In this document: one piece after another, positions 4,543 through 63,134 of the stretch
Layout of the letters: every line of letters begins with the position of its first letter
How positions within the stretch are numbered: position 1 is the first letter of the stretch
DNA from: Schoenoplectus triqueter
Lineage: Eukaryota; Streptophyta; Magnoliopsida; Poales; Cyperaceae
Assembly (NCBI GenBank): GCA_964058805.1
Contig: CAXKVV010002144.1
Span: forward strand, 1,054,001-1,118,000
Reading direction: 5' to 3'
Length of the DNA stretch: 64,000 nucleotides
Program-made: the position numbers and the translations under genes
The notes under the pieces: generated by a model
Databases searched by the model: none
What the model was told of the DNA's origin: nothing
Seen by the model: the letters and a program-made list of their open reading frames with translations, nothing else

Positions 4543-4564
4543 CAGTGAGCGCAAGCCCTCACTG
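4543..4564 (-). other. Conserved stem-loop in LTR B (left)
   Basis: On the minus strand CAGTGAG, loop GGCTTGCG, CTCACTG form a perfect 7-bp stem. It is preceded by AGCCCAGGGTAATTAAC, which is also present in LTRs A and C. It lies about 160 bp before the LTR 3' end, in the presumed R/U5 region of the RNA. Confidence 0.75.
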
Positions 4565-4784
4565 TTAATTACCCTGGGCTATGAACCCTAGGAACCTTCG
4601 ATGCTAAGAAGAAAGAATTAGAATATAAATAAAATCAATTAAATAGGCCATTTTGAGTAACGAGAATTAATCAACAACGATTATCCTTGGTTTTGTTATT
4701 TTAATGAACCTGTGTGGTAGCTCAAACCATAATACAAAACTGGTGAATCTGGGTGTTCTTATACCTTATAGATTCAATTATCAG

Positions 4785-5375
4785 AAGATGGTGAATTTGG
4801 TCCACTTAATTATCTTACTGATCTTCTAAATCATGAAACTCTATGAGTTTATAATTTAGAATGTTTAAACCTGAGCGTTTTGGGCTTTGTTAGGTTTGAT
4901 TTATCGGGGACATGTGAGATTTGGGTCACTTAACTGTCTTACCAATCTTCCAGATTATGAAACTATGCTAGCTCATAATCCAGGCAATGTAAACCTGAGC
5001 GTTTTGGGCTTTATTAGGTTTAATTATCAGAAAAATGGGTGAGATTTGGATCACTTAGTCATTTAATTGATCTTCTAAATTGTAAAGTTTGAAGCGCTAT
5101 GCCAACCTACAACCTAGGTATTTAAAATCTAAGCGTTTTGGGCTTTATTAGATTTTCTTATCAGGAAACCGATGAGATTTGGGTCACTTAATGTTTTTTT
5201 ACTGATCTTCCAAATTATAAAATTTGACGCACTATCAACTTATAACCTGGGTAATAAACCTGAGTTTTATATGTTTTATTAGGTTTACTTATCATAAGAA
5301 CGGGTGAAATTTAAATCACTTTATCATTCTTAAATGGATTTTGAATTATGAAACCTAAGACATTTTGTGAGTTCA
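4785..5375 (-). repeat. Imperfect tandem repeat, about 125-bp unit, about five copies (left LTR B)
   Basis: Each unit contains a gagatttgggtcacttaa-like start, then atcttcyarattatgaaa, then aacctgagcgttttgggctt and ttaggttt (plus-strand reading). The atcttc landmarks lie near 4820, 4944, 5069 and 5203. The same array occurs at 24197-24788 in the right LTR. Confidence 0.8.
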
Positions 5376-7892
5376 TAATCATGAAGAATTGAATTTACTA
5401 TTTAGTCAATAATTTTTTTTATCTTTTAGAAAATATTTATAATTTATTTTATTTATTTGAAAATAGAGATTTTAGTCTCATCTATAAGATGTGAATTTCA
5501 AATTACTTCATTTATTTTATTTATTTGAAAATAAAATTTTATTTATTTATATATATATATATTTTTAAGTTATTTATAGTTGCATTTTTATTTATTATTT
5601 TATTATTTTTATTATTTACAAATTAGGAGAATTATCATATATTTATTTATTTTATTTCATATGGAGTAAATGAATTTACTTAATGAATTTTATTTTATTT
5701 ATGTGTATTTAATTATCTTTTGTTATTGATGAAATTATATTTTTAATCAACAAGATATATTTATCTAAAACTTATTTGTGAAGGAGAATATTTGTAATTA
5801 TTATTATGAATATCTATATATTTTCTTTTATGAATCGTTTATTATTTAAGAAAAGAGTAGGTTTATTTTTCATTTTTAGTTTCATGAGAAATATATATTT
5901 TAATTTTGTAAAATTTTGTATATATAAAAAAAAAGAAATTAATTTTATTCAATTTGGAGTTTGGAAAGACTTTAAAATAATTTTTATTTTATTTATATGT
6001 ATTTTCTTTATTTTTGGGTTTCAAATAATTGGGCTCTTTTATTTTTCTGAAATCACTATGTATAATGGGCCAAAATGAGTTTTTTTTTTATTTTCCTTAA
6101 GCCGGGCCAATTAAATTTCCCTTTTTTTTTGGGGGCCGAATCTGTTATTATTTTTTTTATTCTTATTGGACCGGTCTTGCAATTTCTAGCTGGATTATAT
6201 ATATTTTATTTCAATCTTTATTGGGCTAAATTAACTCTTTAAGTCCAAATTTTTATTGAATAATGCTTTACGATACGGGCTGACTCTATTTTTTATTAGA
6301 CTGGGCCATCTTCTCGTGCTCTCTAAATTGAGCTCTCATTTTCATCTTTTTTTTTTGTAGGGTTGCATCAAGATTAATACTTAAAGTCTCTGAACCCTTA
6401 TCTAAATTATTTGGTCCAGATCTTATTTCTTGACAAATGCGTATGCTCAAACTCATATTGATATAGTCATTCTGATATTGATTGCTTAGTATTTATTATG
6501 TTTGCTGGTTATCAAAACAATCTTTTTCGTTTTTAATATTAATTCAAACATAACAGGGAATATTCATCAAAATCTTTAATGATTTGTATTCACTTGTGTT
6601 ATAGAGTATAACGTTACTTCAGAATCTTTTTATCTTAACTGAAAAATTTAAGGAGTTGAAATGAAAACAATATATTACACAAATAATTAATGTTTTGATG
6701 AGATTTCAACAATATATGAAAACTAGCAGGAATGTAAAAAGTAATGTAGAAATAATTTTGAAATTTTATTGGGAATTTCATATAAATGATGCAATCAAAC
6801 TCATTGATGAGTAAGTAGTATTAAGTGTTAGGATCAATTTTTATTTTGATTTTTTTTATTTGAGCGAATTTAAATGTATTTACACATAAGTCCTTGTTCA
6901 GAGGTCAAAACCAGAAAATGGACCCATCAGAACCGTTTTATTCTTTTGAATATTCAGAAATTAGTATTTTTGTTTGAAATTTTCCGGTTAAGCATTATTT
7001 ACAATAGTGTTTAATAATATAAAATAATATATATATATATTATATTTATAAAAAGGTCAAACTCAAATGAGATTTTTGTGATTTTCAGAAGAAGAATGCA
7101 AAATTAGTGAAACATTTGGGTTTTTATGCAAAATTTCTAAAATTAACATACTGGGACTAAGTGACAGTAAGACACATTGGATAATTTAAAACAACTTTTG
7201 TTTTTGAAATTTTTTTATTTGACACTATTTTGGTTAAGTTTCAAGTGATTTTGACTAAAGTATTAAAACTGTAATTAATGGACAGTTAAGAGTAATTAGG
7301 GTATTTAGATACTCAAACCTTTATATTTTTATCTGAAAATTTAAATTTAAGCTCTAGTCTTTATGGAAAATAAGAATATAAAATAAAATTTATATGTTAA
7401 ATTCATAGATTGCTACAGTTTATTAGATGTTTTTACTGCTGCCAGTAAAAGAGAAAATCAGAGGATATTTTTGAGATTTTAGAAGATCTATTCAAAAGGA
7501 GATTTAAACAAGATTAAAGGATTATTAAAGAAAATACTTATGGTAAATTTATGTATGTTGATAAATTTTATTTAAGATAATATTAAATAGATTCTAAAAT
7601 AGTTTTTGAAGGAAAAACAGTAAAATAATCAATTTTTGACTATCTTTATACTAGCAAAAGAGCTTATGCGTTTTTTTTTTATAGAACATTATTAAAACTG
7701 TAATATTACTCCATTTATACTAAGTATGGGTTTAAAGATGATTTTTTTACAAAGAGATCCAAACTTTTATAATATTTACAAAAGGACTTGTAATATTCAT
7801 GAATGCATACTTATAATCTCCAAACTAGTTTATAAATCTAATTGTTGAGTTTTTAAATGTTAAAACCAGTATCATGTTGCTCTAAAAATCCG

Positions 7893-8090
7893 ACACACAC
7901 AGTCCTTTCGAACCGGCACCAAGATTTTATAGAGTTCCATGATTTATTCTAAAAAAAAAACTTAAATAAACTCTTTAGATAAAGTATTTCATTTTTATTT
8001 TAGAAAGGCTAACACTCACAGCTTTTTCAAGCCGGCACTAGCATTATAGAACTTTGTAACCCGACACTCACAGCTCGGTCAAGCCGGCAC
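7893..8090 (-). other. Three copies of a GTGCCGG...GTGAGTG hairpin motif (left LTR B)
   Basis: In sense orientation each copy reads GTGCCGG, a short spacer, then CTGTGAGTG or close to it (near 8065-8090, 8013-8038 and 7893-7920). CGGCT or CGGTT can pair with AGCTG or GACTG when G-U pairs are allowed. Copies of the same motif occur at 61195-61272 in element C. Confidence 0.6.
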
Positions 8091-10562
8091 CAAGGTTCCA
8101 AAGAGCTTTTATATTATCCTATTATTAATAATAACTACTATTATATTTCTAATAACTATATTTATTATAACTCTTAATACAAGACCCTAACCTGAATATA
8201 TAGCAAGAAAATAGAGATTAAAGGGGTTAAAATCGAAAAAGAAACAAAAAAACAGAAAAGAAACAGAAAAGCAGAAAACAGAAAGCAGAAAGTCAAACTA
8301 GCTTTGATTCCGAGTTTATTTTAAATTTTTTTGAATATAACATACAAATATTTTTGAATAGATTCAAGAAAATAGGAGTTAAGAACATGTCCTAATTTTC
8401 TAAGAATTTCTAAAGTATTTTTGATATTTTATTTTGAGACTTTTCTCTGTCAGGGACAGATCTGTAAATAGTTTTTGTTATTTCTAATTAAAAATGACAT
8501 AACTTTCTATAGGAGCGTCAAAAAAATACAAAATCAACTTCTATGAGTTCATGTAAATAATTTCTACAAGATCTAAGAGTTTAGAGAGTTTTAAAACAGA
8601 TCTCATTCTTTTTCCTTATTTTATTTCATTTCAGCACTTAAAAGCTGATTTTTTTTTATCAAGGATTCATTGATCTTAAAGCTTCTAAGGGTATTATCTG
8701 AACTCTATTTAACACACAATCGAGTTTGTAGTGTAAATATGAGTCAGTAAGAAAGAAAAGGAAAGAAAATTCGAATTTCAAAAATTCAAACAGTAAAGAA
8801 AAGAGAGAGAATCAATAACATGCAGTAAACTTCATTCCATTGCATAAACCTCATATTTACAAGCTCCAAAACAGATTTGTTGTCTAGGATTACATAACAA
8901 AGATCTATCTATACTGATTTCTATAGTTTGAAACTTGGAGGAAGAGAAGGTGGATTGAACTTCTCGGTTTTGGTTCAAGAACTCAGATTTGAGCTTCTTG
9001 TTTTCTCTTTAATGGTTTCTCCGAATTTGCCTCTTTAATTCAGGGTTTTTCCTTTGTATCTAGTGTGAATACTATGGCAGAGAGGTAGAGAGGGTCTGGG
9101 TTGTGTATCTTGTCGCCAGGGAAGCTGCTGTCTTGGATGCCTTTAAATAGAGAGGAGAGGCGGTCCATACGAGGTGTGATGTGTCGAAGGTATAACATTC
9201 CCTTAAAACTACTCCAACGACGCTCTATTTGATTCCTTCTGTTAGAACATTGCCCAATTATTGAGCCACATGTGGACAGTCGGTTGCAGAACAGTCCAAA
9301 GTTCTGAGAGTGTTATTTGCATCGCAAGTTTAGCTAGTGAAGGCATATATACATGACAATCACATCATTAGTCCTTATGAGCTGGCATTTCTTCTGGAAT
9401 TATCTGAAAATTAATCTTATCACACACCAGGTATTCTCTAATAATCTGAGCCGTCGATTTGGTGTTTAAGAGCTGAGCTTCTTTTACCAGAAACTAATAC
9501 ACTAGCGTTGTGGGACCCACACGAAGCTCTCTGAGCTATCAACTTGATCTTCTATGCATCGGGATGTTCTATTCACCTCTTAGCCGAGCTAATTTCTTCT
9601 TTGATGCGAATATTACACAGTGGGTTATTTTGAAAAACCGATTGCTTCTTTGATCTCTCCTTGGTAAGATCTTTAAAAAGGTATAAGGGTCTGATTCAAT
9701 TCGAGACATTTCTCTCATCACCATTTTTGTTTTTCTTATCAGAGGAGGAATCGGGGAGAAAAAAGAGCAGGGAAGGGTTGCTTGAGTTTAAATTGACCTC
9801 TTATTTGCTTAGACATGGTGCACATGAACCGTTCTCTTCATTATTTTTGATTCACAAGAAATAAGTCTACACCTCCTTCCTTCTTTTGTTTTTTTTCTCC
9901 GAAATAGATTAGGAACATCACATTTAATGTAGATCATGAGGCATTTTTATGCTGATTGTGGGCCTGCAAGCAACTCAATCCACGAAATAAATTATTTCTC
10001 CCCTTGATTAAATTTGAATTTTATCATTATTTTAAACTTTTGAATTTATTTTGAAAGCTCCCTGGCTCCAAAATTCATCATAATTGACACAATTTTTTTA
10101 TAAATCATGCCAAACATTATGGTAATTTTTTTTCATTTTTTCCCTTTCATTAATCAGCAATTAATTATTTTGGTGCCATAATTAATTGATTTAATTTGAT
10201 TAATTGATGATTTTTGGATTTTTCCCGACTTCTATAACTCCAAAAACATCAAATGATATATCAAAATTCTCATAATTTCATGGAGAACCCAATTCTTTCA
10301 TAAAATTTGAGTTTTGAATTTTTTTGACTTTGACGAGTTTTTCGATTTGAATCTCCCAAGCTTTGGCAATTAATATTTTTTCTGAGAATTTCTAATTTCT
10401 TTCAATTTTATCCCCAACCCTTGAGTCTTTGGGCTTGATCTGGGCTATTTGGGCCTCTATTATGCTTAATGGGCCTACTTGGGCTTTTTGGGAATACTAG
10501 GCCTCTCAGGCCTGACCCAATTTTTTTTTAAATTATTCCCCGAATATTTTCAGGGGTAAACA

Positions 10563-12571: not shown

Positions 12572-15500
12572 TCAAGCGTAATACTTCTTAAGATATCTCC
12601 CACTAATTGGTGGCAAAAGCCTATTCCCTTTATGATCGATGAGTTGATATGCTCCCGCTTCATACACTTTCTCAATGACATATGGTCCTTCCCAATTTGG
12701 GGAGAACTTAGACCCCACATGTCTACCGATGATCGGTCTCTTCAGTACTAATACCAATTCTCCTTCCTGGAATGTTCTTAGGCGGGCCATCTTATCATAT
12801 GTTTTCGCCATTTTTGCCTGGTAAAGCTCCAGATTTTGTTGAGCTATTAATCTTTTCTCGTCCATCGCATCTAACTCATCCAGCCTGAGTTTATGATGTT
12901 CCTCCAAAGTCATTTCTGTTTGCATAGCCACCCTTAAAGATGGTAACTCTACTTCCAATGGTAAAATTGCCTCGACTCCAAATACCAGAGAATACGGCGT
13001 TGCTTGCGTTGGGGTTCTATATGTGGTTCTGTAAGCCCAAAGCGCCTCTAAGAGTTTATTATCCCAATCGCGTTGATTTCCTTCGACCGTTTTCTTCATG
13101 ATGTTGATCAGGGTTTTGTTGAACGCTTCCGCCAACCCATTGGCTCTTGGGTTATAAATTGAGGAGTATCTCCAGTCGATTTTAAAATGTTCCGCCAAAG
13201 CATATATTTTAGCGTTCTTAAATGCTGTCCCATTATCAGATATAATCCTTCTTGGAGTACCGAATCGGTATAGCACATAGGTTTTGAAAAACCTGACCAC
13301 ATCTGAAGCCTTGACCTCTTTAAGCGAAATTGCCTCCGTCCATTTTGTGAAATAATCCGTCGTGGCGAGAATATACTTGTGTCCTTTCGAGGTGGGCGGA
13401 TCAATTGGCCCTACTATATCTGTGCCCCAAATGCTGAACGGCCATGACGACACTGTAGGATGTAGTGGGCTTGGTGACTGATGTATGAACGGGCCATGAA
13501 TTTGGCACATGTGGCATCTCTTAGCGTGATCTTCACAGTCAGCCACCATCGTTGGCCAGTAGTACCCCATTCTCTTGATCTTGAGGCGCATCTTTGGTCC
13601 AGACTGGTGGGCACCACATAAGCCAGAATGAACTTCCTTCATTACTTGCTCGGCTTCTTGGTAGGAGACGCATCGCAACCATAATTGGTCAAATGATCTC
13701 CTGTAAAGAGTGTCATTTAAATACACAAATCGGAGAACTCGCTTCTTTATCTGGTCTCCTGCTGCTTTCTCTTTTGGAAGAGTACCTTGCTTGAGGTAAT
13801 CGATGAAAGGCCGTCTCCAATCATCCTTCTCAGAATTAGCCACCAACGTGTTTATTTGGTCTGAGCTTTTATCTAAATAACATTCATCTTCCACTTCAGC
13901 AAAATAGTCATCATCTTCTTTAGTGAAGCACAGAGATAATGGTCGTCGGCTTCTAATGGTTAGATGAATCTCATGCTCATCAGGTTCGCTTAACTCCTTA
14001 GCTACCTTTGCGAGGGCATCTGCTCTGCCATTTGCGGCTCTTGTGATTTTATTGAAGATGACTTCAGGTATTTGCTTCACTAAATCTATCGCTTTTTGGT
14101 AGTATTGTACCAATTCTGGTTTCAACACTTTGTATTTCCCTGTAACTTGATTTATAATCAATTGTGAATCACCGAAAACATGTAAGCATTTGATTTCTAA
14201 ATCGATAGCCATCTCAAGGCCAGTTATCAAAGCTTCATATTCAGCCTCATTATTGGTGCATGGTTCCATTAATGCTAGCGCATGTCTTGCAATGCCACCT
14301 TCTGGGGTGACAAACACTAGACCTATCCCTGCCCGAATTGTAGGAATACCAGGTCCCGGGAGTGGCCTTATTGATGACGCTCCATCAAAATACATTTCCC
14401 ATACGGGATTATCTTGCTGGATATTCATGACTTCTTCATCTGGGAAATCACACGATAAGGGCGAATCGTCTGGAATTGGATGTGCTGCCAAGAAGTCCGC
14501 CAATGCTTGCCCCTTGATTGCCTTTTGTGGTACACATGTGATGTCGAATTCTGTCAATATAATTGCCCACTTGGCCAGTCTCCCCGTGAGCATAGGCCTC
14601 GTCATTAAGTATTTAAGCGGATCCACCTTTGATATGAGAATTATCCGATGAGAGATCATGTAATGTCTCAACTTTTTAGCGGCGAAAATTAGGGCCAGAC
14701 AATGTTTCTCAATGGGTGTATACCCGTGTTCAGCTCCTACCATCATTCGACTAAGATAATACAGGGCATTTTCTTTCCCTTGCTCGTTCTCTTGGGCTAG
14801 GAGGGCACCCAAAGACCCTTCTAAGGCAGTTGTATACAAGATTAACTCTTTCCCAGGGATTGGTGCTGCCAAAACAGGAGGGTTAAGCAGGTATTCTTTA
14901 ATGCTGTCAAGCGCCTCTTGACAGTTTAAGTCCCATTTGAATGGGACATCTTTCTTCGTAAGTCTAGTGAAAGGTTGAATTTTTCCAGATAAGTTCGCTA
15001 TGAAGCGTCGAATATACGCTAACTGTCCCTGTAATGAGCGTAAACCCTTAAGGTTTTTCGGAGGAGGTAGTTCCAAGATTGCTTTGATTTTACCTGGGTC
15101 GATTTCAATGCCTCGGTGGCGTACAATGAAACCCAGAAACTTCCCTGATGATACCATGAAAGCACACTTCAGAGGATTCAGCTTGAGTGAATGCAACCTC
15201 AACCTATCAAATACCACTTTCAAATGGTTGAGGTGTTCTTCTATTGACATGGCTTTCACGACCAAATCATCCACATAACACTCGACAATCTTATGTATGA
15301 GATCGTCAAATATTTTAGTCATAGCCCGCTGATATGTGGCACCCGCATTCTTGAGTCCAAAAGGCATAACTGTATAACAATAGATACCGATTGGGGTACG
15401 AAAGGCCGTGTGTTTCTCATCTTCGGCCGCCATCTTGATTTGGTTGTATCCCGCATATCCATCCATAAATGAGAACACTTCATATGATGAAGTATGGTCA

Positions 15501-18500
15501 ATGATGATTTCCGTGACTGGTAACGGAAAATCATCTTTCGGACATGCCTTATTAAGATCTCGAAAATCAACACATATGCGTATTTGTCCGTTTTTCTTTT
15601 TAACGGGAACTATGCTAGCCACCCATTCTGGGGTTTCTTCTTCCCGGATAAAGCCAGCTTTAATCAACTTCTTTGTTTCTTCCACCACTTTCTCTTCAAG
15701 CTCTATTCTCATTCGTCGAGGCGCTTGCTTTATGGGTTTAGCCTCAGAGTCAATTTTCAATTGGTGAACTGCAACTTGCGGGTCTAAGCCAGGCATCTCT
15801 TCATAGCTCCATGCGAAACAATCGACATATTCTAGGAGCAGCCTTTTTAGCTTTTCACTTTCTTCCGGTGCGAGAGATGCACTGATGAAAGTGGGTTTAG
15901 GATTCTCTTCACTTCCCAGGTTAATTTCTACTAAGTCATCGATAGTATTTGGGGTCTTTTCCATTTCTTTCTTTGCATTCTGAATTATTGGTGAGACTTC
16001 ATCATCTTCCTTTTCTTCTACAGGTGTCTCATCGCATGACACCATGTGGCACTCAAAGAATTGTCTGCATGCTTCTTCAGGGCTTAAAAGATTTTGGTCG
16101 GATTCATATCCTAAACCTCTTGAACTCTTCATCTTCCCATCCAAACCCATCACTTGTTTGAAAGAGCCTCTCCAAAGCTTTTCAAAATTCTCCATTTGTG
16201 ATCTCGGAATTGACTTTGGGAGTTTAGCCTTCCTGGCCAACTTTTGCACCTTTCTCCCATAATATTGGGAGGTTTCAATCTGCACTTCTTCTTTATTAAG
16301 AATGTTATCTTCATCATCCCATTCTTTCCATTCATCTTTCTGATGGTCATCGTTGGTTAACTCACTTCTGTAAAATATGATAGGCTTATGCCTAATTATT
16401 TTACCTTGGGATTTTTCTTCTTTTGGGGGTACTATGAAAGTACGTAAGACTTGTACTTGATTGACTTCCCGAGGTGTAAGGTCTTTGTAGCGATTTTCCG
16501 GAACCTTTTCAATTGCCAGTGATGTCTCGCCTTCTTCATCACTACTGATTTTAATGGTGTTTATTCTGTGAATCACCTCATCTTCTGAGTTGCCAGTTCC
16601 TTCATATGTCTCTGATTCACTGTGATCTTCCTCATCAGTTGAGGCTCCCAATATCGGGATATCACGAGAAGTTGACCTCAGATTGAAGATGATTTCTTCA
16701 TCACCGTCCACTGATACCTTACCAGATATGCTTGGGATTGATTTTGTTCCAAGATTATCCATTGAATCTTCTTCTTCAGAGCTGCAAGAAACTGTAAAAA
16801 CAGTGAATTCTCCGACTGCTCTACCACTGTCCAGATCAATTATCTCTGTAATTTGTATGGGAGCATCTTCATCTTCACTGTCCCCTATCTCTATAACTTC
16901 TTTCGGATAATCAGTATTGGAATATCGTCTTTTTTCAAATTTTAACCTTCTTTCAACATCTCTTTCACAAGAGCACTCTTCATGTGTGCAAGTACAAAAG
17001 ATTGCAAGGCATGTAACATTGTCGTCTTCTGCCTTTCTAATGACTGAGCTATTCTTAGGTCTCATTTCTACACTTTTTCTCGATCCCTTGAGATAAGCGT
17101 ACATATCTTGTACCAGATTCATGGTTCGTTGTTGTTGTTGGATGAGACATCTTATACTATTCTGACATCTGCCCACTTGATATCTTAGATCGGATAAAGA
17201 TCTCGGCTGGTGTTTTCTGTCTTCTTCTTTACACGGACTGCAGGAGACCATATTACATATAGGTGTAAATTCACCAAAATTCCCTCGCTCATCATCCCAA
17301 TGGACTCTGCCATTTGCGAGTTTATACATGGCTACCCCTTCGCATTCTATCGGAGGAAATTCTTCCACTATACTTGATATCTTGATGAAACGTGATGGCA
17401 ATTCAAGCACACCTAATTCGTATTTATTTTGGACTAACCCCTTAAAGGTTTTGCAATCCCGAATGTCATGGTCCGTCATTCCGTGATAATTACAGTAGGG
17501 TTCTCCTGGCACCCAGCCGGTGTAATCCAAATATCTCTTATTTGGCACTCTAAACCCTTGTTCACACCAGAGTTCAAATATTTCGTTTGCTTTTCCCTCA
17601 TAAAATGAGTAAACTCGATGCCTTGATCTTACAGGGGCAGGCACCGCTCGCCTTTGTGGTCTTGCACTTGGCTCACCAGCACTTATTTCTATCACCTCCC
17701 TTGATTCATCAATCTCGATTACCTTTCGACTTGGCTCACCAACTTTTAATATTTGTAGCCCTCCGCTCGAGGAGTCAGTACTATATGAGTTTGTAGAAGG
17801 TCTCTTGCCTGTGGGATCAGTGTTACTGGTAATCACGGGATTTCTTTCCTTCGTAAAATCACTACTACAGATGATTGTGGAGCACCTTCCATCTACAGAA
17901 TCAGTGCTGCAGGTAATTACCGGGTACTCTTCCCTCGCTAAATCATTGTTGCGGGCGATGACAGGAAATTCTTCATCGGTAGAATCAGTACTGCAAGTAA
18001 TTACAATACGCTCTTTGCTTGAGGACTGGAGACTCTCTTCAGTGGAGAAATCACTGCTTTCTTCATCCGCGGAGTCAGTATTTTGGGTGACCACGGGGCA
18101 TTCTATGTCGGTGGAATCTGTCTCGGTGTATCTCTTGCTTAGATAGTCTGTACTTTCCCCACTTGTAGAATTGGAGTGATAGGAGATTGCAGGATATTCT
18201 TCATTCGTGGAATCAGTGCTGCAAGAAATCACATTTACAGTGAATTCATTTCTTGAATTCGAGTTTCGTCGAAGGCGGGCTGGCAAGCCGAATGTACCTA
18301 GCTCATATCTATTTTGCACAAGGCCTTTGAAAATTCGACAATTAAAGATATCATGACCTGTGGTCCCATGATATATGCAGTAGGATGGCCTAGGCGGCTG
18401 AATCATCTCTTCCCGAAATCTACTATTTGGAACCCTGATTCCACATCTGCACCATATTGCAAATATTTCATCCATTTTGTCTTCGCGGAACGAAAAAATA

Positions 18501-21500
18501 AGGGTTCTATTTCGCCTTGCACGACCTCGTCGTCTTGAAAGTTCTGGCTCATCGTCATCACTTACTTCTATCACTTCCCGAGCTAAAGGTATGCGGCTAA
18601 GCACACCAATTTCTCTATTTTGTAATCTTTTACATATTTTATCCATTTCTATTATTGGTGGTCGGAGAACTGGTTCATCATCCATTCCTTGATTTTCTCC
18701 CCCTGTTGATGTCATGCAACTAGTAGCTGGCTGAATGATTGGCTGATTATTTGATTTAACCATTTGCTGTCCTTCTTTGATTTTTTTCTTCCCATCTTTG
18801 GACAGGTTTTCTAAATACTCGACCTGTCCTGGGTTTCTTATGCATGCATAAATTTTATGCAAAAGGCATGCAGTCTGAATCTGTTGTTCTTGAAGAAATT
18901 CTATATTTCTTTGACACTCTTTCAGTTGACACATCACATCAGTCGGAAATTCAAGATAATATTCTTTCTTTATTTTTTCATTTATGGCAACAGAATCTTG
19001 ATTTTTGAACAAATCACTCATCATATTACAGTTAAATCCCTCCCTTTTAACTTTGATAGCGTTCTTAGTTACCCTGATGACTCCCTTTTTGTCCTGATTA
19101 ACTTGTAATGATTCTTCACTTTCATCGCTTGTGTCATTCTTCATTTTAGGACGGTATACCACTTCTTCCTCTGATTCTTCATATTCTGATTTTCGAGAAT
19201 CTTCAGAAGTGGTTCTGCTGCTTTTCTGATTGTCACTTTCTGATTCTTCATTTGCTTCCGAGCTTTCATCGGTTGATGCTCCTAAAATGGGAATGTGACT
19301 CAGAGCTTTCGCTGGATAGAACATTACATCTTCCTTAGCCGGATCGTCACTCGATGATGCTCCCGATACGGGTGCATTGTTAGACATAGCCACCGATTTA
19401 CGGTAGAACATTATCCTCTCATCTTCGTCTGATGACGTATCATAAACTGGCTCAACAAGAGGCTTGACTATCTCTCGCTCTTTTCCTTTACCCTTTGGGA
19501 TAATTGACATGGATTTTGCTGAGGTAGGTACTGCTTTCTGCACCTGTTTTGTCCGGGTTTCAAGCTTCCTCCTATTTGGCTCGCTCAACCTTGCCTTTTC
19601 TGGTGAGTTAAAATATCTTGCCTCTTCATACTTGACTTCATGTACGCCAAAGGGCCTAATATCACCATTTATTCTTCTTTGTTTTCCATCCTTCACGTAT
19701 TTTATACACTGGTGAAGGGTTGAAGCCACCATGCGGTGTTCATGTAGCCATGGACGACCTAATAGAGCTTTGTATGATGTATCAGCATCTATTATGTAGA
19801 ATTTTGCCTCAGTTTCTAACGCCCCAAAATTCAAGGCGAGGTTCACAGCGCCCAACGCTCTTTGAGAATTCTGATTAAACCCATGGATGGTTACCTTTTC
19901 ATTTGACAATAATTTAATATCTAACGCCAGGGTTTTCAATGTTTTGAGAGGCATGATGTTGATAGATGATCCCGCATCTATCAGTATGCGATTGAGTCTT
20001 TGCCCTTCGCATTCTCCAGTGATAAACAGAGGCCGGTTATGGTCAGCAGTTCCTATCAGTAAATCTTCATCAGTGAAGTTGATACCGGCCATACGGCCGC
20101 TGATGTAGAGAGCTTCTTGCAAGCTTTTGTCTGCGAAGTATGATTTATACTGTTCGGCATTCTGTAATGCACAAATCAGCACATCTCGTAACTCTTGCGA
20201 CATCATTAATGCGTCAAAGACACTGAGAAGCGCAGGTATCTTTCGCAAATGAGCCATAATATTATATTCTTCTGCTACCAACCTTGCCTTATCACTTGGC
20301 TTGTCGATAGGATTGATATCCTTGTTCTTTTCAAAAACCTTATCTTTCCCTCTGCTTGCTTCTTTCGGAGCTTGTCTTTCGGGAATTTGAGTACCTGATC
20401 GCAATACAACTTTACAGTCTGCGGTTTTAGGCTTGCTTGTTTCTCCTTCTTTAGGACAAAAGAGTTTTCTCAATGACGAGAAGTTCTCTTCTTCAGATTC
20501 AACATCATGAACTACCATGTCACATGCTTCATAATCACAGAAATCAATGTGGCTCATCATTAGACACGCCTCACCCCATATGTTTTCATCATCATCTTCA
20601 TAATTAGAGTCTATTGTCTCAACTTCTACTTTTTCAATGTCTTCTTCTTCTTCTTCGACTATTTTCTCTTTCCCTTTGCTGGTTGCTTTGACATATTTTT
20701 CTTCTTCATCGGGAATTCCCATCAACTTATCCCAGACTTTCTTCGGGATATAATCTCGTAGGATGGATGATATCGGGTTACCAGGGTTATACTCTTCGAG
20801 AGCATCTACATACTTTTGTATGTCTGTTTGCTTGGCTGATTTCCTATTCTTCTTCTTTTTACTACCTTCGTTCTTCTTATAAAATACTTTTGTTTCTTTG
20901 GGCTGAGAAGGTACGACGGGTGTAACCTCATTTCTCCATTTTATGCTAGGTTCCTTTTGAAGGGATTTGAGCAATTTCTTCGCTTTTTTGGATAAGTGCA
21001 CTACCCAAGGTTTTTCATCATTATCCACCTTCTCTTCCTGGCAGAAGACATGATTAGACTGTTCATGGGGCGCTGGGTCCTGCAGGATGCTTTTCGGTAG
21101 AGCGATTTCTCCATCTCGATATTTTCTCTCCACCCAATCCTTAAATACCCAACAATCTTCGATGGTGTGTCCCAAGATTCTGTGATATGGGCAGTAGTTT
21201 GGATCGTCAGATTTCCCCATATCTGCCGGACGCTTGCACTCAGGTAATTGAAGCCCGTTCTTCAGTGAATCACTGAAAATTTTAGCCACTCGATCTCTAC
21301 GGAAAGAGTAAGGTTTACTCTTCTTTTCTTTCAAAGTCGTGATGAGTCTAGAACCTCCTTCCATCATCGACTTGTCATTCATTTGTTTATTTCCACCGTT
21401 GTTGTTCATACCAGTGTTGTTTGTTGTATTTATATTAGCCACCCCTTTATTTCTGTTGGGGATATAAGCTACTCGGGTGTTGACTTTCCCACTTCTTTGG

Positions 21501-23650
21501 GGTCGGGACGCCGAGGCACCATCTTCCATTTTTGGGTGTAACGTCTCCTCGAGTCTGGCCACACTTTTGATCAAATCATGATAAGTGCGGATCGACGCAA
21601 CACTTAAATAAGGCTTCATTTCTTTGGAGATGTTTCTGAGTATAAACTCAACGGCCTCTTCTTGCGTTAGTTTGTGATCACACTTAACGCTCAGATTTCT
21701 CCATCTAGCGATGTATTCTGACATCTTTTCACCGAGATTGGGCTTCACATTTGCTAAATCCACTAGGTTTGTCGTATCAATCATAACTGCAAATTTGGCT
21801 CTGAAGGCATCGGCCATTTCATCCCATGTACTGATACTATCATTTTCTAATGAGTAGTACCATTGAAATGCAGTTCCGGTTAAACTTTGAGGGAATTGTC
21901 GCAGTAGAAGGGCATCAATACCTCCCGTATTTCCACATGAGGCAACAAAATGTGCCAAGTGTTGATCTGGGTTTACATCCCTTGTTCCCTCGCCAGAAAA
22001 GGATTTGAATTTTGGGATAACGTACCCTTTTGGGTAATCAACCTGATCGTAAAATGCAGGATAGGGTCTTCCACATCTCCTTGCGGGTGTAGGAATGTAT
22101 CCTCCCCCAATCATTTGTATCTGTTGTCTGACCAACTCCTGCACCTCTTTCTTGGTTATGCTTTGATGATCAGGCATTCGAGAAGTGTTCTCATTGGAAC
22201 GATTTACCTCTCTATATGGTCTTCTAGTATTTGTACTCGGTCTTTCTTCTATTTCATTATCATCTTTCACCTCTTCAGGTTTCCCTTTTAGGTTTTCGTT
22301 TGACGCAGCCTTACCTCCCATCATGAAGGCCTGCATGGACTGCATCATCTTGAATATTTCATCATTTTGTTTCTTAAGTTCTTTTATTTCTTTTTGTTGC
22401 ACTGCAATTTGTTGTTCTTGTTGCTTTAAACGAACTTTTAGCAATTCATCGGGATTAGCTGTCCCTGAATCGCTAACCTCATCATCTTCTTTGTTAGGAT
22501 CTTCTTGACGGCCCCTTTCATTTTCTTTGATAGCCGTGTGTTCCATTTCCGGGTTAGTACTTCTACTATTACCCCTTGTTACTATCACATGAGCCCTCGC
22601 GAGATCTGGCTCAAAGAACACATTCGTGATATCTTCTGGAACATCATCTTCTTCATAACCATCGACTCCTATGTGGGCCATGTATACTGAGAAGTGCTGC
22701 TCAGCTTGTTCTACCACTCGTCGTTTTTTGTGACTTGGGTTTGACGTAGTTATAACTAGATTTTTATTCACAGGTGGTGGTCCAGATTTGACCCTATGTC
22801 CCAACCTGTTGAACACACTCTCTTGAAAGTCCTCGTGTGCCTGTTGAGAAGAACTTCCCTTTGGAACCCACACTTGTTTCATCTTATGAGGCCTAGGTTT
22901 AAATTGCTTCCCTGATTCTCGGGGAGCGTAGACAGTTCGCTCCCTGTGGTTGGGGAATGTTAGCCGGGTCTTTACAGATTCCCGAACTAGGATAGGAGCT
23001 TGTTGGATATGTTCATCCGTCCTTCGTTGCCACCTTCGTTGCTTTCTTTCTTTCATGGCTTTGTGTGCCTGATAGATGACATTGGTAGAGGTAGGGGGTT
23101 TTGGTCTACCACTGTGCACTTGAGTTTGCTGGGGTCGTGGTTGTGGAACCTCCCAGACACGACGTATTTGACCAGTGTGAGAGTTGTTCCTCACCACCCT
23201 CAGTGGTGAGAATGAGTTGGCCACTGGGACAGCTGGCCTAGCCACTAGTTGATCCTGATATTGTTCCAAAGCTCTTTTCTTATTGAGCCTTGGGGCCTGT
23301 TGTGGTGCTGGCACTGGTACAGGACGGGAGGATGATGCTGCGGCCATCCTTCTCCGATATGACCTGCTTTTCTTTTGAGGTTGAGGAGGAGTTCCCATTA
23401 TATTATTACGAATGCCCTTCTCAGTGAGGTAGAAGCAGCATTCATCATCCTCTTTCACAGCTTGAAGTGGTTGCGAGATTGGAGCGACCATAATAGGAGC
23501 CATAGGAGCAGGTTGTGGTATCATTGAGATTTGAGGAACTGTCCCAATGAAGAAGTAGTTCCTTCCTTGAGCATCCTGAGCAAAGCTCATCGGAAGAGGA
23601 ACCATATTGTTGTTGATGCTGGAGTTCAAATTGTTGCTGAAAAACGCCAT
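12572..23650 (-). CDS. gag-pol: Element B gag-pol polyprotein, about 3,692 residues, uninterrupted
   Basis: The start is the ATG at 23650 (MAFF...). The frame is open 15 bases further up, but only through a TTG codon, and element A starts at the same MAFF motif. Approximate layout in residues: basic N-terminal extension 1-550 with a conserved KRAL-x-x-YQ-x-QLVARPA block, a VFNRLG motif and a coiled coil at 397-442; gag core 555-685; zinc knuckle C-x2-H-x4-H-x4-C at 820-833; retropepsin with DAGSS at about 1225; a 1,300-residue acidic linker with two further zinc-knuckle cassettes (1758-1772 and 2053-2067); RT about 2640-2857 with YVDD at 2792-2795; RNase H about 2927-3043; archaeal-type RNase H about 3083-3230 with DGAS; integrase zinc finger 3337-3387, core 3403-3520, GPY/F about 3650. 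It is far longer than usual Ty3/gypsy polyproteins (about 1,500 residues). No stop or frameshift is visible, so this copy may be functional. Confidence 0.95.
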   Translation of the reverse strand: MAFFSNNLNSSINNNMVPLPMSFAQDAQGRNYFFIGTVPQISMIPQPAPMAPIMVAPISQPLQAVKEDDECCFYLTEKGIRNNIMGTPPQPQKKSRSYRRRMAAASSSRPVPVPAPQQAPRLNKKRALEQYQDQLVARPAVPVANSFSPLRVVRNNSHTGQIRRVWEVPQPRPQQTQVHSGRPKPPTSTNVIYQAHKAMKERKQRRWQRRTDEHIQQAPILVRESVKTRLTFPNHRERTVYAPRESGKQFKPRPHKMKQVWVPKGSSSQQAHEDFQESVFNRLGHRVKSGPPPVNKNLVITTSNPSHKKRRVVEQAEQHFSVYMAHIGVDGYEEDDVPEDITNVFFEPDLARAHVIVTRGNSRSTNPEMEHTAIKENERGRQEDPNKEDDEVSDSGTANPDELLKVRLKQQEQQIAVQQKEIKELKKQNDEIFKMMQSMQAFMMGGKAASNENLKGKPEEVKDDNEIEERPSTNTRRPYREVNRSNENTSRMPDHQSITKKEVQELVRQQIQMIGGGYIPTPARRCGRPYPAFYDQVDYPKGYVIPKFKSFSGEGTRDVNPDQHLAHFVASCGNTGGIDALLLRQFPQSLTGTAFQWYYSLENDSISTWDEMADAFRAKFAVMIDTTNLVDLANVKPNLGEKMSEYIARWRNLSVKCDHKLTQEEAVEFILRNISKEMKPYLSVASIRTYHDLIKSVARLEETLHPKMEDGASASRPQRSGKVNTRVAYIPNRNKGVANINTTNNTGMNNNGGNKQMNDKSMMEGGSRLITTLKEKKSKPYSFRRDRVAKIFSDSLKNGLQLPECKRPADMGKSDDPNYCPYHRILGHTIEDCWVFKDWVERKYRDGEIALPKSILQDPAPHEQSNHVFCQEEKVDNDEKPWVVHLSKKAKKLLKSLQKEPSIKWRNEVTPVVPSQPKETKVFYKKNEGSKKKKNRKSAKQTDIQKYVDALEEYNPGNPISSILRDYIPKKVWDKLMGIPDEEEKYVKATSKGKEKIVEEEEEDIEKVEVETIDSNYEDDDENIWGEACLMMSHIDFCDYEACDMVVHDVESEEENFSSLRKLFCPKEGETSKPKTADCKVVLRSGTQIPERQAPKEASRGKDKVFEKNKDINPIDKPSDKARLVAEEYNIMAHLRKIPALLSVFDALMMSQELRDVLICALQNAEQYKSYFADKSLQEALYISGRMAGINFTDEDLLIGTADHNRPLFITGECEGQRLNRILIDAGSSINIMPLKTLKTLALDIKLLSNEKVTIHGFNQNSQRALGAVNLALNFGALETEAKFYIIDADTSYKALLGRPWLHEHRMVASTLHQCIKYVKDGKQRRINGDIRPFGVHEVKYEEARYFNSPEKARLSEPNRRKLETRTKQVQKAVPTSAKSMSIIPKGKGKEREIVKPLVEPVYDTSSDEDERIMFYRKSVAMSNNAPVSGASSSDDPAKEDVMFYPAKALSHIPILGASTDESSEANEESESDNQKSSRTTSEDSRKSEYEESEEEVVYRPKMKNDTSDESEESLQVNQDKKGVIRVTKNAIKVKREGFNCNMMSDLFKNQDSVAINEKIKKEYYLEFPTDVMCQLKECQRNIEFLQEQQIQTACLLHKIYACIRNPGQVEYLENLSKDGKKKIKEGQQMVKSNNQPIIQPATSCMTSTGGENQGMDDEPVLRPPIIEMDKICKRLQNREIGVLSRIPLAREVIEVSDDDEPELSRRRGRARRNRTLIFSFREDKMDEIFAIWCRCGIRVPNSRFREEMIQPPRPSYCIYHGTTGHDIFNCRIFKGLVQNRYELGTFGLPARLRRNSNSRNEFTVNVISCSTDSTNEEYPAISYHSNSTSGESTDYLSKRYTETDSTDIECPVVTQNTDSADEESSDFSTEESLQSSSKERIVITCSTDSTDEEFPVIARNNDLAREEYPVITCSTDSVDGRCSTIICSSDFTKERNPVITSNTDPTGKRPSTNSYSTDSSSGGLQILKVGEPSRKVIEIDESREVIEISAGEPSARPQRRAVPAPVRSRHRVYSFYEGKANEIFELWCEQGFRVPNKRYLDYTGWVPGEPYCNYHGMTDHDIRDCKTFKGLVQNKYELGVLELPSRFIKISSIVEEFPPIECEGVAMYKLANGRVHWDDERGNFGEFTPICNMVSCSPCKEEDRKHQPRSLSDLRYQVGRCQNSIRCLIQQQQRTMNLVQDMYAYLKGSRKSVEMRPKNSSVIRKAEDDNVTCLAIFCTCTHEECSCERDVERRLKFEKRRYSNTDYPKEVIEIGDSEDEDAPIQITEIIDLDSGRAVGEFTVFTVSCSSEEEDSMDNLGTKSIPSISGKVSVDGDEEIIFNLRSTSRDIPILGASTDEEDHSESETYEGTGNSEDEVIHRINTIKISSDEEGETSLAIEKVPENRYKDLTPREVNQVQVLRTFIVPPKEEKSQGKIIRHKPIIFYRSELTNDDHQKDEWKEWDDEDNILNKEEVQIETSQYYGRKVQKLARKAKLPKSIPRSQMENFEKLWRGSFKQVMGLDGKMKSSRGLGYESDQNLLSPEEACRQFFECHMVSCDETPVEEKEDDEVSPIIQNAKKEMEKTPNTIDDLVEINLGSEENPKPTFISASLAPEESEKLKRLLLEYVDCFAWSYEEMPGLDPQVAVHQLKIDSEAKPIKQAPRRMRIELEEKVVEETKKLIKAGFIREEETPEWVASIVPVKKKNGQIRICVDFRDLNKACPKDDFPLPVTEIIIDHTSSYEVFSFMDGYAGYNQIKMAAEDEKHTAFRTPIGIYCYTVMPFGLKNAGATYQRAMTKIFDDLIHKIVECYVDDLVVKAMSIEEHLNHLKVVFDRLRLHSLKLNPLKCAFMVSSGKFLGFIVRHRGIEIDPGKIKAILELPPPKNLKGLRSLQGQLAYIRRFIANLSGKIQPFTRLTKKDVPFKWDLNCQEALDSIKEYLLNPPVLAAPIPGKELILYTTALEGSLGALLAQENEQGKENALYYLSRMMVGAEHGYTPIEKHCLALIFAAKKLRHYMISHRIILISKVDPLKYLMTRPMLTGRLAKWAIILTEFDITCVPQKAIKGQALADFLAAHPIPDDSPLSCDFPDEEVMNIQQDNPVWEMYFDGASSIRPLPGPGIPTIRAGIGLVFVTPEGGIARHALALMEPCTNNEAEYEALITGLEMAIDLEIKCLHVFGDSQLIINQVTGKYKVLKPELVQYYQKAIDLVKQIPEVIFNKITRAANGRADALAKVAKELSEPDEHEIHLTIRSRRPLSLCFTKEDDDYFAEVEDECYLDKSSDQINTLVANSEKDDWRRPFIDYLKQGTLPKEKAAGDQIKKRVLRFVYLNDTLYRRSFDQLWLRCVSYQEAEQVMKEVHSGLCGAHQSGPKMRLKIKRMGYYWPTMVADCEDHAKRCHMCQIHGPFIHQSPSPLHPTVSSWPFSIWGTDIVGPIDPPTSKGHKYILATTDYFTKWTEAISLKEVKASDVVRFFKTYVLYRFGTPRRIISDNGTAFKNAKIYALAEHFKIDWRYSSIYNPRANGLAEAFNKTLINIMKKTVEGNQRDWDNKLLEALWAYRTTYRTPTQATPYSLVFGVEAILPLEVELPSLRVAMQTEMTLEEHHKLRLDELDAMDEKRLIAQQNLELYQAKMAKTYDKMARLRTFQEGELVLVLKRPIIGRHVGSKFSPNWEGPYVIEKVYEAGAYQLIDHKGNRLLPPISGRYLKKYYA

Positions 23651-23770
23651 TTCCTGCAAACACAAACAAACTCCAATTTCAATTAGTTACTCATGATTAT
23701 TTAATAATGACTTATTTTATTTTATTTATGTTCTATTCCTTTTCTTCTTAGTGAACGGAAGGAAAACAAT

Positions 23771-23788
23771 GTCCCACCGGGCGTGCCA
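23771..23788 (-). other. Primer-binding site of element B
   Basis: On the minus strand TGGCACGCCCGGTGGGAC begins five bases after the LTR end. An identical 18-mer lies at the same place in element A (34696-34713). The complementary tRNA 3' end would be GTCCCACCGGGCGTGCCA. I could not assign the tRNA. It is not the initiator-Met type common in plant elements. Confidence 0.75.
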
Positions 23789-23954
23789 GATCCTGTGCGA
23801 CCCTTTTTCGCGCCTCTCCTCACTCAGGAAAAGAATCTAGTGAGAACGGCGGAAGAAGGACACGGTACCACCCTCAGATGTATATTTATGTATTTATTTT
23901 TAGGATTATACATCCAAAGGCTTTTTTTTAGTGATTGTGGGAACTTTATTGTTC

Positions 23955-23976
23955 CAGTGAGCGCAAGCCCTCACTG
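23955..23976 (-). other. Conserved stem-loop in LTR B (right)
   Basis: This is the same perfect stem and GGCTTGCG loop as at 4543-4564. Being in the 5' LTR, it would lie in the RNA leader about 160 bases upstream of the LTR/primer-binding-site border. Confidence 0.75.
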
Positions 23977-24196
23977 TTAATTACCCTGGGCTATGAACCC
24001 TAGGAACCTTCGATGCTAAGAAGAAAGAATTAGAATATAAATAAAATCAATTAAATAGGCCATTTTGAGTAACGAGAATTAATCAACAACGATTATCCTT
24101 GGTTTTGTTATTTTAATGAACCTGTGTGGTAGCTCAAACCATAATACAAAACTGGTGAATCTGGGTGTTCTTATACCTTATAGATTCAATTATCAG

Positions 24197-24788
24197 AAGA
24201 TGGTGAATTTGGTCCACTTAATTATCTTACTGATCTTCTAAATCATGAAACTCTATGAGTTTATAATTTAGAATGTTTAAACCTGAGCGTTTTGGGCTTT
24301 GTTAGGTTTGATTTATCGGGGACATGTGAGATTTGGGTCACTTAACTGTCTTACCAATCTTCCAGATTATGAAACTATGCTAGCTCATAATCCAGGCAAT
24401 GTAAACCTGAGCGTTTTGGGCTTTATTAGGTTTAATTATCAGAAAAATGGGTGAGATTTGGATCACTTAGTCATTTAATTGATCTTCTAAATTGTAAAGT
24501 TTGAAGCGCTATGCCAACCTACAACCTAGGTATTTAAAATCTAAGCGTTTTGGGCTTTATTAGATTTTCTTATCAGGAAACCGATGAGATTTGGGTCACT
24601 TAATGTTTTTTTTACTGATCTTCCAAATTATAAAATTTGACGCACTATCAACTTATAACCTGGGTAATAAACCTGAGTTTTATATGTTTTATTAGGTTTA
24701 CTTATCATAAGAACGGGTGAAATTTAAATCACTTTATCATTCTTAAATGGATTTTGAATTATGAAACCTAAGACATTTTGTGAGTTCA
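24197..24788 (-). repeat. Imperfect tandem repeat, about 125-bp unit (right LTR B)
   Basis: This is the LTR copy of the array at 4785-5375. The units repeat the same cctgagcgttttgggctt and ttaggttt landmarks. Confidence 0.8.
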
Positions 24789-28552: not shown

Positions 28553-28563
28553 CCTTTAAATAG
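28553..28563 (-). promoter_or_regulatory. Predicted core promoter (TATA-like box) of element B
   Basis: The minus strand reads CTATTTAAAGG inside a CT-rich stretch, about 1.4 kb into the LTR. The equivalent place in elements A and C has a canonical CTATATAAAC box followed by a CT-rich stretch, which supports the call. The twin in the left LTR is at 9141-9150. If it is used, the leader before gag is more than 4.7 kb long. Confidence 0.5.
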
Positions 28564-61194: not shown

Positions 61195-61272
61195 GTGCCG
61201 GCTAATACACAGCCGCGAGTGCCTAGTTTTGGGGAGTATAAGCTTGTGCCGGTTATACACAGCCGTGAGTGC
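61195..61272 (+). other. Two copies of the GTGCCGG hairpin motif in LTR C
   Basis: The first copy has CGGCT and AGCCG around a 7-base loop. The second has CGGTT and AGCCG around AATACAC-like bases. Both are followed by GAGTG. They match the three copies in LTR B and lie about 1.2 kb downstream of the TATA box, as in B. Confidence 0.6.
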
Positions 61273-63112
61273 TCGCTTCTGTTGAGATTTAAAAGACTTT
61301 TTTTTGAAAATTACATTATTATATATATGCATATTCCCCTTTACAATTGATAATTACATTCTATAAAAATAAATTTTTATTTTTTATTTTTCTGTTGAAT
61401 AAAAATCCTTTTAAAACACATTTAAGATAGGCTTAAATAAAAATATTATCAAAATGAAAGTTATCACAAATATAGTCCTTAAAATGTTCATATTTTTTCT
61501 GAAATATTTTCTTTAATAGATTCTCTAAAAATATTCAAAATATCCTCTGCTGTCCAGTTCAGTCCTTTATCAGAAAAGAATTAAAAAACTGTACCGATCT
61601 GTAAATGTGACATATATATATTATTTTATATTCATCAAATACATATCAAGAGGAGTTTGTATATAAATTTTCATGCAAAAATAAGTTTTAAATACCTTTC
61701 AAATAAGCAAAACAATCTTGACAGCTCCTGATTTTCAGAACCGTCTTCTGCTGGTATTTTGCTCAAAACAGTACTTTTAAGAACTCAAAATGAAAAGTGT
61801 TCCACATAAAAGTTGTTCGTAACATCCCATTTCATATTTCTGTTAAATAAAATCAATATGTTATTAACTCATTTTACTCTAAAAAAATAAAAAACAGTAT
61901 TATCTGCTGAAATCTTCATAAATTTTCAGATTTGTCCTTTTCTAATATTCCTCCCGAAATAATATTTCAAAGGATTCAAATTAAAAAATATTCAAACTAA
62001 AAGTTGTTCATAACATTGTCATTGATATTTTTATCAAATAAAATTAGTATCTTACTAATATATTTTTCTCAAAAAGTCTAAAAAGATCACTACATGATTA
62101 TGTTTTCTTTACCGATAAAAATCAGAAAAATATTATGGTCCATTCTAAAAAAATATTTTAAAATCATAAATATTTTGATAATAAGTATAAATAAAAATAT
62201 AATAAAACTTCTTTATAAATAGATCTTAAGAAAATAAATTAAAAATTGTTTCATAATAAATCATTTTAATTAAAGAATAATCATTTCAAGATAAAATATA
62301 ATAATTAGAATAAAAATCATAATAAAATAAAATAAAAACAATGCATTCATTGAAAATATATAATAAAAAGAAATAAGATAAAAAATAATAAGAAAAAAAA
62401 ATTCTTAATATAAATAAATATAATTTTTATTCATTAAATCAAATTGTAAATTAAATAATTCTAAATAAAAATATACAAAATACAAAAATAAACAAAATTA
62501 AATATATAACGAATAAAAAAATAAAATAAATATAACTCTTATTAAAAATCAAATTAGAATTAAATAAAAATGAATTAAATAAATAAATACATAAATAAAA
62601 AATAAAAGACTTTATGATTTTTATTTTTACCAATTAAAAATAAATTCAATTTTAAAACTAAATCAACATTCACCTAAAATAAAGATCAAAATAAAAAAAT
62701 AAAAAGTAACTCTCAATTTCAAAATTAAATAAAATTCAATATCAATAAATAAATAAAATATTAGTAAAAATAATGATAAAAAACTAAAAGACCTTTTTTT
62801 CTTCTTATCAAATAAAAAAAATTCAATTTTATAATTAAACCAAACTTAATCTAAAATAAAAATAAATCTCAATATTCAAGACTAAATAAATTTAAATAAG
62901 ATAAGTTCAAATAATAAATAAATAAATAAATAAAAACTAAATCATTTTATCAATAAAAAATAAAAAGTCAATTCAGAAGGTGTAAACTACCTTGAAAAGT
63001 CCATATATTCCATGCCCTTACTCATAGCGACCGCTTAAAATTGCTTAACTATTCTGTTTATTTTCTCTTTCTTAATCAGAGGTTCCTCGGGTTCAAAGCC
63101 CAGGGTAATTAA

Positions 63113-63134
63113 CAATGGGGGCTTGCGCCCATTG
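63113..63134 (+). other. Conserved stem-loop in LTR C
   Basis: The plus strand reads CAATGGG, loop GGCTTGCG, CCCATTG: a perfect 7-bp stem, preceded by AGCCCAGGGTAATTAA. It lies about 160 bp before the LTR end. Confidence 0.75.

Follow-up and report, generated by a model that had tools for sequence, protein, structure and literature searches.

How is a short hairpin near the end of retrotransposon long terminal repeats (LTRs) maintained, and what might it do in the element RNA? This question is raised by a 64,000-nucleotide stretch of the Schoenoplectus triqueter genome (contig CAXKVV010002144.1, positions 1,054,001 to 1,118,000; hereafter the window), in which the LTRs of three elements, designated A, B and C, carry a stem-loop whose arms differ between the elements in step. 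Our analysis indicates that this stem-loop (SL1) is very probably an RNA hairpin whose structure is under selection and which belongs to the R-U5 leader of Tat-clade retrotransposons. In the best overall explanation, to which we assign a probability of about 0.4, selected leader folds are combined with a leader intron that divides the RNA between genome and message; the role in splicing and partition, read from sequence, is its tentative part. All evidence derives from this one genome, and genome-wide counts refer to an assembly of 82 Mb in 2086 contigs.

Position and occurrence of SL1

SL1 spans 22 nt and is found in the window at four places:

23955..23976, minus strand: SL1 in the 5' LTR of B, 7-bp stem around the loop GGCTTGCG, arms CAGTGAG and CTCACTG
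4543..4564, minus strand: SL1 in the 3' LTR of B, arms CAGTGAG and CTCACTG
34893..34914, minus strand: SL1 in A, arms CGGTGGG and CCCACCG
63113..63134, plus strand: SL1 in C, arms CAATGGG and CCCATTG

The loop is invariant, and three of the seven pairs are changed on both sides between lineages. A preliminary description of this DNA had reported four such stem-loops with these properties, and both the window search and the arm letters bear it out; its estimate that the hairpin lies 160-175 bp from the LTR end agrees with the distances measured from the near end of the stem, i.e. 161 nt in both LTRs of B, 174 nt in A and 162 nt in C. All four copies are present, but the window holds three independent sequences rather than four, since both B copies are the LTRs of one young element. 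Likewise, the border between LTR and primer-binding site (PBS) that was said to follow exists in A and B, but not in C, which is a 3' LTR followed by satellite DNA and therefore has no PBS after it in the window. The view that the LTRs are otherwise diverged had to be narrowed: A, B and C have the last 268-288 nt of the LTR in common, and B and C share further blocks. Upstream of this 268-288-nt module, the sequence was not alignable across lineages in the approximately 700 nt compared.

Within the window, GGCTTGCG occurs five times (1.53 expected), the fifth occurrence (33941, plus strand) being without a stem. Folding of 30-nt pieces gave z-scores of -3.2 (A), -3.9 (B) and -2.7 (C), and longer pieces including the upstream exon reached only -1.0, -2.6 and -1.6, respectively. 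Genome-wide, the exact sequence AGCCCAGGGTAATTAAC was counted 572 times and the pattern GGGTAATTAAC-N20-GGAA in 611 copies, while both reversed controls yielded 0. Of 276 places selected by the PBS, a sample was formed by the 30 that come first when the contigs are taken in order (L039-L068; for the most part A lineage), and SL1 was present at 30 of 30 loci. These correspond to 27 of 27 distinct leaders, because two leaders were matched two or three times via repeated PBS copies. Among 129 loci and four window pieces, some of which overlap, the hairpin was missing in three: L069 is a chance match from a junction search, and L071 and L078 are LTR ends joined upstream to other DNA. The distance from the end of the flank that precedes SL1 to the first PBS was 187-205 nt, except for 298 nt (L042), 346 nt (L043) and 348 nt (L061). 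Some A-lineage copies (L005, L021, L030, L061) carry a unit of about 146 bp, comprising the U5 end and the PBS, tandemly repeated two to three times. Rfam covariance models at gathering score gave no match across the 64,000 bases of the window. Collections of viral contigs and genome contigs gave no match either, and the comparison is therefore confined to one species.

Paired changes and further folds of the leader

SL1 is the first of three hairpins, SL1 to SL3, in the module that ends the LTR; a further hairpin, SL0, is predicted upstream. RNAalifold, applied to 26 sequences, found SL1, most of SL2 (columns 101-109 with 159-167) and SL3 unprompted. SL2, which is supported by RNAalifold and by covariation, and SL3 are located as follows:

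23871..23920, minus strand: SL2 in the 5' LTR of B
34788..34862, minus strand: SL2 in A
63164..63219, plus strand: SL2 in C
23797..23863, minus strand: SL3 in B, in which GTGTCCTTCTTCCGC pairs with the LTR 3' end GCGCGAAAAAGGGTCGC just ahead of the PBS
34722..34781, minus strand: SL3 in A
63226..63293, plus strand: SL3 in C

For the analysis of SL1, copies were picked by flank and loop and not by the arms, which gave 76 distinct aligned copies. In these, 95.5% of the SL1 pair cells were standard pairs, compared with a mean of 88.2% in shuffled alignments, and none of 500 shuffles reached the observed value. When the partner arm was slid along the alignment, 51.4% were paired at most. Double changes were detected at pairs 1, 2, 3 and 6. 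Because many copies have decayed, all copies and lineage majorities were analysed apart. The majorities were derived from 24 of 26 rows (four of lineage A, four of E, five of C, four of D and seven of B), excluding the single A2 and F rows; the latter has a mismatch at SL1 pair 3. At the level of these majorities, all three SL1 pairs that vary are Watson-Crick throughout the five lineages, and each changed on both sides, none on one side only. An additional double change (CAGTGGG with CCCACTG) was seen in two A-type copies, L029 and L030. These have the same orientation at a distance of 22 kb and could descend from a single origin. As to SL2, the arms of which are 17-40 nt apart, 87.6% of the cells were paired and 35 cells showed double changes; none of 500 shuffles matched either measure, and the best slide reached 55.4%.

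Column pairs elsewhere in the same alignment that are Watson-Crick in A and variable served as background. Six of the 11 variable pairs of SL1 and SL2 that are Watson-Crick in A stay so in the five lineages, as compared with 101 of 3841 background pairs (2.6%). When only pairs were considered in which both columns vary by one transition type, the counts were 6 of 8 for SL1 and SL2 and 88 of 454 (19.4%) for the background, corresponding to a chance of about 0.001; SL1 alone (3 of 3) has a chance of about 0.007 in this class. Both probabilities are hand arithmetic that treats pairs as independent. Covariation thus supports SL1 and SL2.

Several observations weigh against selection on pairing. 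Two of the five SL1 measures were not above shuffles, namely the number of pairs changed on both arms, a value reached by 253 of 500 shuffles, and that of additional pair types, reached by 263, and the same is true for two of the five SL2 measures (302 and 500 of 500). The SL2 pairs 103/165, 110/158 and 111/157 are broken in at least one lineage. An unpaired A/C at SL1 pair 2 occurs in five aligned copies, four of them E-type (L112, L113, L114, L125), and could have been inherited as a mismatch or have arisen by parallel decay. When all copies were placed on a tree, changes in a single arm were common among old and decayed copies. Changes of both arms on the same branch showed no clear excess (99 sequences; 6 seen, 3.05 expected, P 0.064), although this test undercounts, as the pair-6 change at the arbitrary root is scored as two single changes. 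Arms that vary independently in related LTRs, which the preliminary description had named as evidence to the contrary, were hence found in part among old copies and not at the lineage level. Finally, every lineage-level change in SL1 is an exchange between G-C and A-U, which weakens the covariation, since cytosine deamination could produce it. Selection on the RNA is favoured over deamination, although the transition-only pattern keeps the latter alive. These data support the earlier proposal that RNA structure in the leader is under selection: five lineage majorities preserve the stem, and SL2, which had not been noticed before, covaries as well. The roles proposed along with it, in reverse-transcription start, packaging or translation, are hypothetical.

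SL3 comprises 14 pairs, of which 97.5% of the cells are paired, is constant in all five lineage majorities and ends 8 nt before the PBS match. Being nearly invariant, it provides no covariation evidence. Its inner hairpin exists in two types, CATCG..CGGTG and CTCAC..GTGAG (alignment A2, columns 198-236), and the occurrence of both within lineages B and D suggests recombination. The PBS itself was located in two elements:

23771..23788, minus strand: PBS of B, TGGCACGCCCGGTGGGAC, the 18-nt complement of tRNA-Arg(UCU) with CCA
34696..34713, minus strand: PBS of A, same 18 nt as in B

TGGCACGCCCGGTGGGAC matches the 3' end of tRNA-Arg(UCU), with CCA added, at 18 of 18 positions, and two such tRNA genes are present in the plant's own genome; the elements thus have the complementarity to a tRNA 3' end that characterizes tRNA-primed elements. 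A PBS variant with CCCAGTGGG in place of CCCGGTGGG, which has one mismatch to tRNA-Arg(UCU), is found in L084 and L107 of the D lineage and in L026. A pairing of the SL1 3' arm with CGGTGGG of the PBS, which by eye is open to all three arms if G-U pairs are allowed, was dropped, because a shared 7-mer of this sort was estimated not to be unusual and the best duplex by computation varies from lineage to lineage.

A candidate leader intron and its rivals

The flank of SL1 resembles a 5' splice site, a reading that was absent from the preliminary description. The relevant features are:

23976..23992, minus strand: AGCCCAGGGTAATTAAC in B with the candidate 5' splice site AGCCCAGG/GTAATTAAC (slash, exon-intron border), intron start 23984
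34914..34930, minus strand: AGCCCAGGGTAATTAAC motif in A, candidate intron start 34922
63097..63113, plus strand: AGCCCAGGGTAATTAAC motif in C, candidate donor 63105
23654..23687, minus strand: branch-point motif ACTAAT and acceptor motif TTTGCAG in B, gag ATG at 23650-23648
34583..34614, minus strand: branch-point motif ACTAAT and acceptor motif TTTTGCAG in A, gag ATG at 34579-34577
23984..24005, minus strand: SL0 in B, by prediction only, a hairpin in which the exon side of the candidate donor is paired

The near-invariant AGCCCAGG/GTAATTAAC directly precedes SL1, which starts at position +9 of the candidate intron. GTAATTAA is kept in 24 of 26 rows, as is the candidate donor GT, the rows coming from all five lineages. 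When the GT sites of nine leaders of A, B, C and D were scored with donor weights, GG/GTAATT was the best or second-best GT in all nine and the sole site in all nine top-four lists. At the other end, 14 of 15 aligned leaders (A, B, C, D) possess ACTAAT, a pyrimidine-rich tract and G(C/T)AG, located 1-5 nt ahead of the gag ATG, and in nine of nine leaders the acceptor is preceded by two to seven ATGs. The fifteenth leader, L082 (C105:60000-61000, lineage C), retains the PBS and lacks exactly the piece GTAAAT...TTTTGTAG that its relatives have between PBS and gag, as if it had been copied from an RNA spliced at the gag acceptor before reverse transcription. Since its donor lies after the PBS, L082 supports the acceptor, not the LTR donor. 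From these motifs we infer that AGCCCAGG/GTAATTAAC may be a 5' splice site used with the acceptor at the gag ATG, which would join CCCAGG to GAAATGG (B, A) or GTGAAATGG (C).

The leader would then consist, in this order, of SL0 around the candidate donor, SL1, SL2, SL3 and the tRNA-Arg(UCU) PBS, and splicing at the candidate donor and the gag acceptor would remove SL1-SL3 together with the PBS. Only unspliced RNA, which keeps SL1-SL3 and PBS, could be replicated as the genome, and the spliced form, having lost the upstream AUGs of the leader, would serve as the message for translation. SL0 and SL1 might tune access to the donor and so keep splicing partial; the predicted pairing of the donor residues G-2, G-1 and G+1 is 0.76-1.00 in A, B and D. 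They could also hide the donor in the 3' LTR copy, comparable to the splice-donor structure of foamy virus. If true, splicing alone would settle which transcripts are reverse transcribed and which are translated.

A number of findings speak against such an intron. The candidate donor has no G at +5, and an unshared GT located 14 nt upstream outscores it in A and L107. In addition, the donor of L082 differs from it. The intron would be 51% AT in A, and in none of the nine leaders is its T content more than about 8 points above that of the 100 nt that follow. The A2 leader L045 showed no acceptor or gag within 300 nt. A genome search for the joined A/B junction yielded no exact match and one match with one mismatch in an unrelated sequence, the C and D junctions lying outside this search; this is weak counter-evidence, since reverse transcription would pass over a spliced RNA that has lost its PBS. 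SL0 reaches -6 kcal/mol or better in just 19 of 26 sequences, and in C the donor G residues pair at only 0.04, 0.23 and 0.67. Moreover, the best local fold of the 5' part of C opens SL1, AGCCC pairing with the loop instead. The pairing of AGCCC with GGGCT of the SL1 loop would form a pseudoknot and is a possible alternative (95.0% of cells paired; double changes at two pairs, in only one and two copies). A search for other intron-less leaders gave 23 matches as compared with 16 for the control; among these, only C105:60619, the match that was examined, corresponds to a leader of the set analysed here.

What other functions could the conserved leader have? The hairpins may be replication signals that act on genomic RNA only, in packaging, dimerisation, tRNA placement or strand transfer, GTAATT being part of the signal rather than a splice site. 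We regard this as possible, albeit somewhat less probable than the leader intron. It fits the presence of SL1 in 27 of 27 PBS-selected leaders and the location of the well-paired SL3 8 nt before the PBS match, where it resembles the U5-IR stem of retroviruses, and passages of PMC3601003 report structured R regions in retroviruses. It leaves unexplained, however, the score of the flank as a shared donor and the conservation, in A, B, C and D, of a branch point and an acceptor next to gag. Alternatively, SL1 could be situated at the transcription start or in the poly(A) region of R and control polyadenylation or promoter use with no intron involved. The module opens, immediately ahead of the short exon, with an AT-rich stretch and a pyrimidine tract that fit a plant core promoter and a 3' splice site equally well, and AATAAA follows SL1 after 4 nt in B; but A and C have no AATAAA at that place and neither SL3 nor the gag acceptor is accounted for, which makes this improbable. 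Least probable of all is a DNA inverted repeat without selection on RNA, its arms changing alike by cytosine deamination at mirrored sites or by palindrome-repairing template switching, since this is in line with the G-C/A-U transitions, with A or T in 19 of 19 invariant columns of alignment A1, with the weak co-change in decayed copies and with covariation in 88 of 454 unrelated column pairs (against which SL1 alone is at about 0.007), but not with the lack of one-sided changes at the lineage level, the covariation of the distant arms of SL2 or the value of about 0.001 that SL1 and SL2 still reach among transition-only pairs.

The preferred explanation, leader folds plus a leader intron, has counterparts in known systems. 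Structured leaders and donors within the LTR are already known in retroviruses. The foamy virus donor also lies upstream of the PBS. According to PMC3694450, the major splice donor in its R region, a part of the LTR, precedes the poly(A) signal, U1 acts at this donor, and an RNA fold at the donor can block U1. Foamy virus is an animal virus; in the plant elements, splicing at the donor is a candidate role, and any part played by U1 or by poly(A) choice would be hypothetical. A wider reading, possible but less probable than not, is that Tat elements of flowering plants have a foamy-virus-like leader, with an R donor masked by a small fold and followed by conserved hairpins, the use of which would remove the PBS. 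SL3 pairs the U5 end with upstream U5 and adjoins the PBS, as does the retroviral U5-PBS/U5-IR stem named in passages of PMC3601003; this is a likeness of layout with no sequence relation shown, and SL3 is too invariant for a covariation test. The elements share with Ogre the Tat clade and an LTR above 5,000 bp (PMC1142308, in part), and part of PMC6317226 states that a subset of Ogre transcripts is spliced. Unlike in Ogre with its partly spliced intron, gag and pol are in one frame here, and the candidate intron is situated upstream of gag, with the PBS inside it. BARE, a Ty1/copia element, has separate RNA pools for genome and message and splices part of its RNA, but its 104-nt intron is at the start of pr and the pools arise from two TATA boxes (PMC3735527, in the passages available).

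A passage of a 2005 paper states that an intron upstream of gag was unreported in any LTR retroelement (PMC1142308), and in the accessible part of a review of December 2025 plant LTR elements are generally without introns, with exceptions including Ogre and EVADE (PMC12786077). Our literature search, whose coverage excluded most subscription papers, did not turn up a description of the hairpin, its flank or the leader; in a text search, 11- or 12-letter pieces of the flank appeared in eight papers, unrelated as judged by title, and the PBS piece in none of them. For most plant elements it has yet to be settled how retrotransposon RNA is divided between genome and message, and a conserved set of donor, acceptor and hairpin in a family of hundreds of copies makes the question testable by ordinary RNA-seq. 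A covariance model built on the leader fold would also help to locate Tat leaders and the R/U5 borders, many of which have yet to be mapped.

The elements of the window and their clade

Element B is encoded on the minus strand and has two LTRs, both flanked by the target-site duplication (TSD) AGTAG:

23794..29975, minus strand: 5' LTR of B, starting with TGTTTACC and ending with GTCGCACA, TSD AGTAG at 29976-29980; LTR pair of 6182/6181 bp
4382..10562, minus strand: 3' LTR of B, TSD AGTAG at 4377-4381
12572..23665, minus strand: open frame of B, 3697 aa, with gag, reverse transcriptase (RT), RNase H (RH), additional RNase H (aRH) and integrase (INT) in this order; profile-scanned in pieces

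The LTRs of 6181 and 6182 bp differ by three mismatches and one gap in 6183 aligned columns, which marks B as a young, recent insertion. Its frame contains RVT_1, RT_RNaseH, RVT_3 (read as aRH) and then rve; in the third piece, RT_RNaseH spans 473-576, RVT_3 647-757 and Integrase_H2C2 872-926. According to passages of PMC6317226, presence of an aRH denotes the Tat clade, and its location between RH and INT the Tat elements of angiosperms (Ogre or Retand). B has an aRH in its polyprotein and at exactly this place, and judged by their domains the elements belong to the Tat clade of flowering plants (Ty3/gypsy, OTA). Below Tat they were not placed, because Ogre and Retand each fail one tested feature: the LTR of B is above 5,000 bp as in Ogre, but gag and RT-RH-INT share one open frame of 3697 aa, and for Retand the LTR range is 315-1,194 bp in the available part of PMC11963269, compared with 6.2 kb in B. 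Positions 10563-12571 of B, where Retand has an antisense open reading frame (ORF) with a TRP28 domain, contain no ORF of at least 200 aa on either strand, shorter ORFs being outside the scan. The Pfam scan of 12572-23665 in pieces found no protease in the frame, and no Pfam match above the cut-off was obtained for about 590 aa ahead of gag or for the roughly 2,000 aa that separate gag from RT.

Element A is split by B; its LTR ends at 34719, and its pol probably continues at 1-3257. The LTR at 34719-41757 has PBS and gag on one side and a junction resembling a polypurine tract (PPT), AGAGCCACC, on the other, and hence looks like an LTR common to two tandem elements. Element C is represented by the plus-strand 3' LTR at 58554-63296, preceded by internal 3' sequence and embedded in a satellite of about 58 bp. 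The satellite array covers 41696-56930 and 63296-64000 and starts beside the PPT-like junction; long ORFs listed within it are probably repeat artefacts. Tandem repeats between pol and the 3' LTR are mentioned for related elements in part of PMC11963269. B and C have the LTR start and the internal 3' end in common at 78% identity (10117-11065 and 58048-58976), and further common blocks inside the LTR are 69-71% identical (8486-8895 and 7324-7607).

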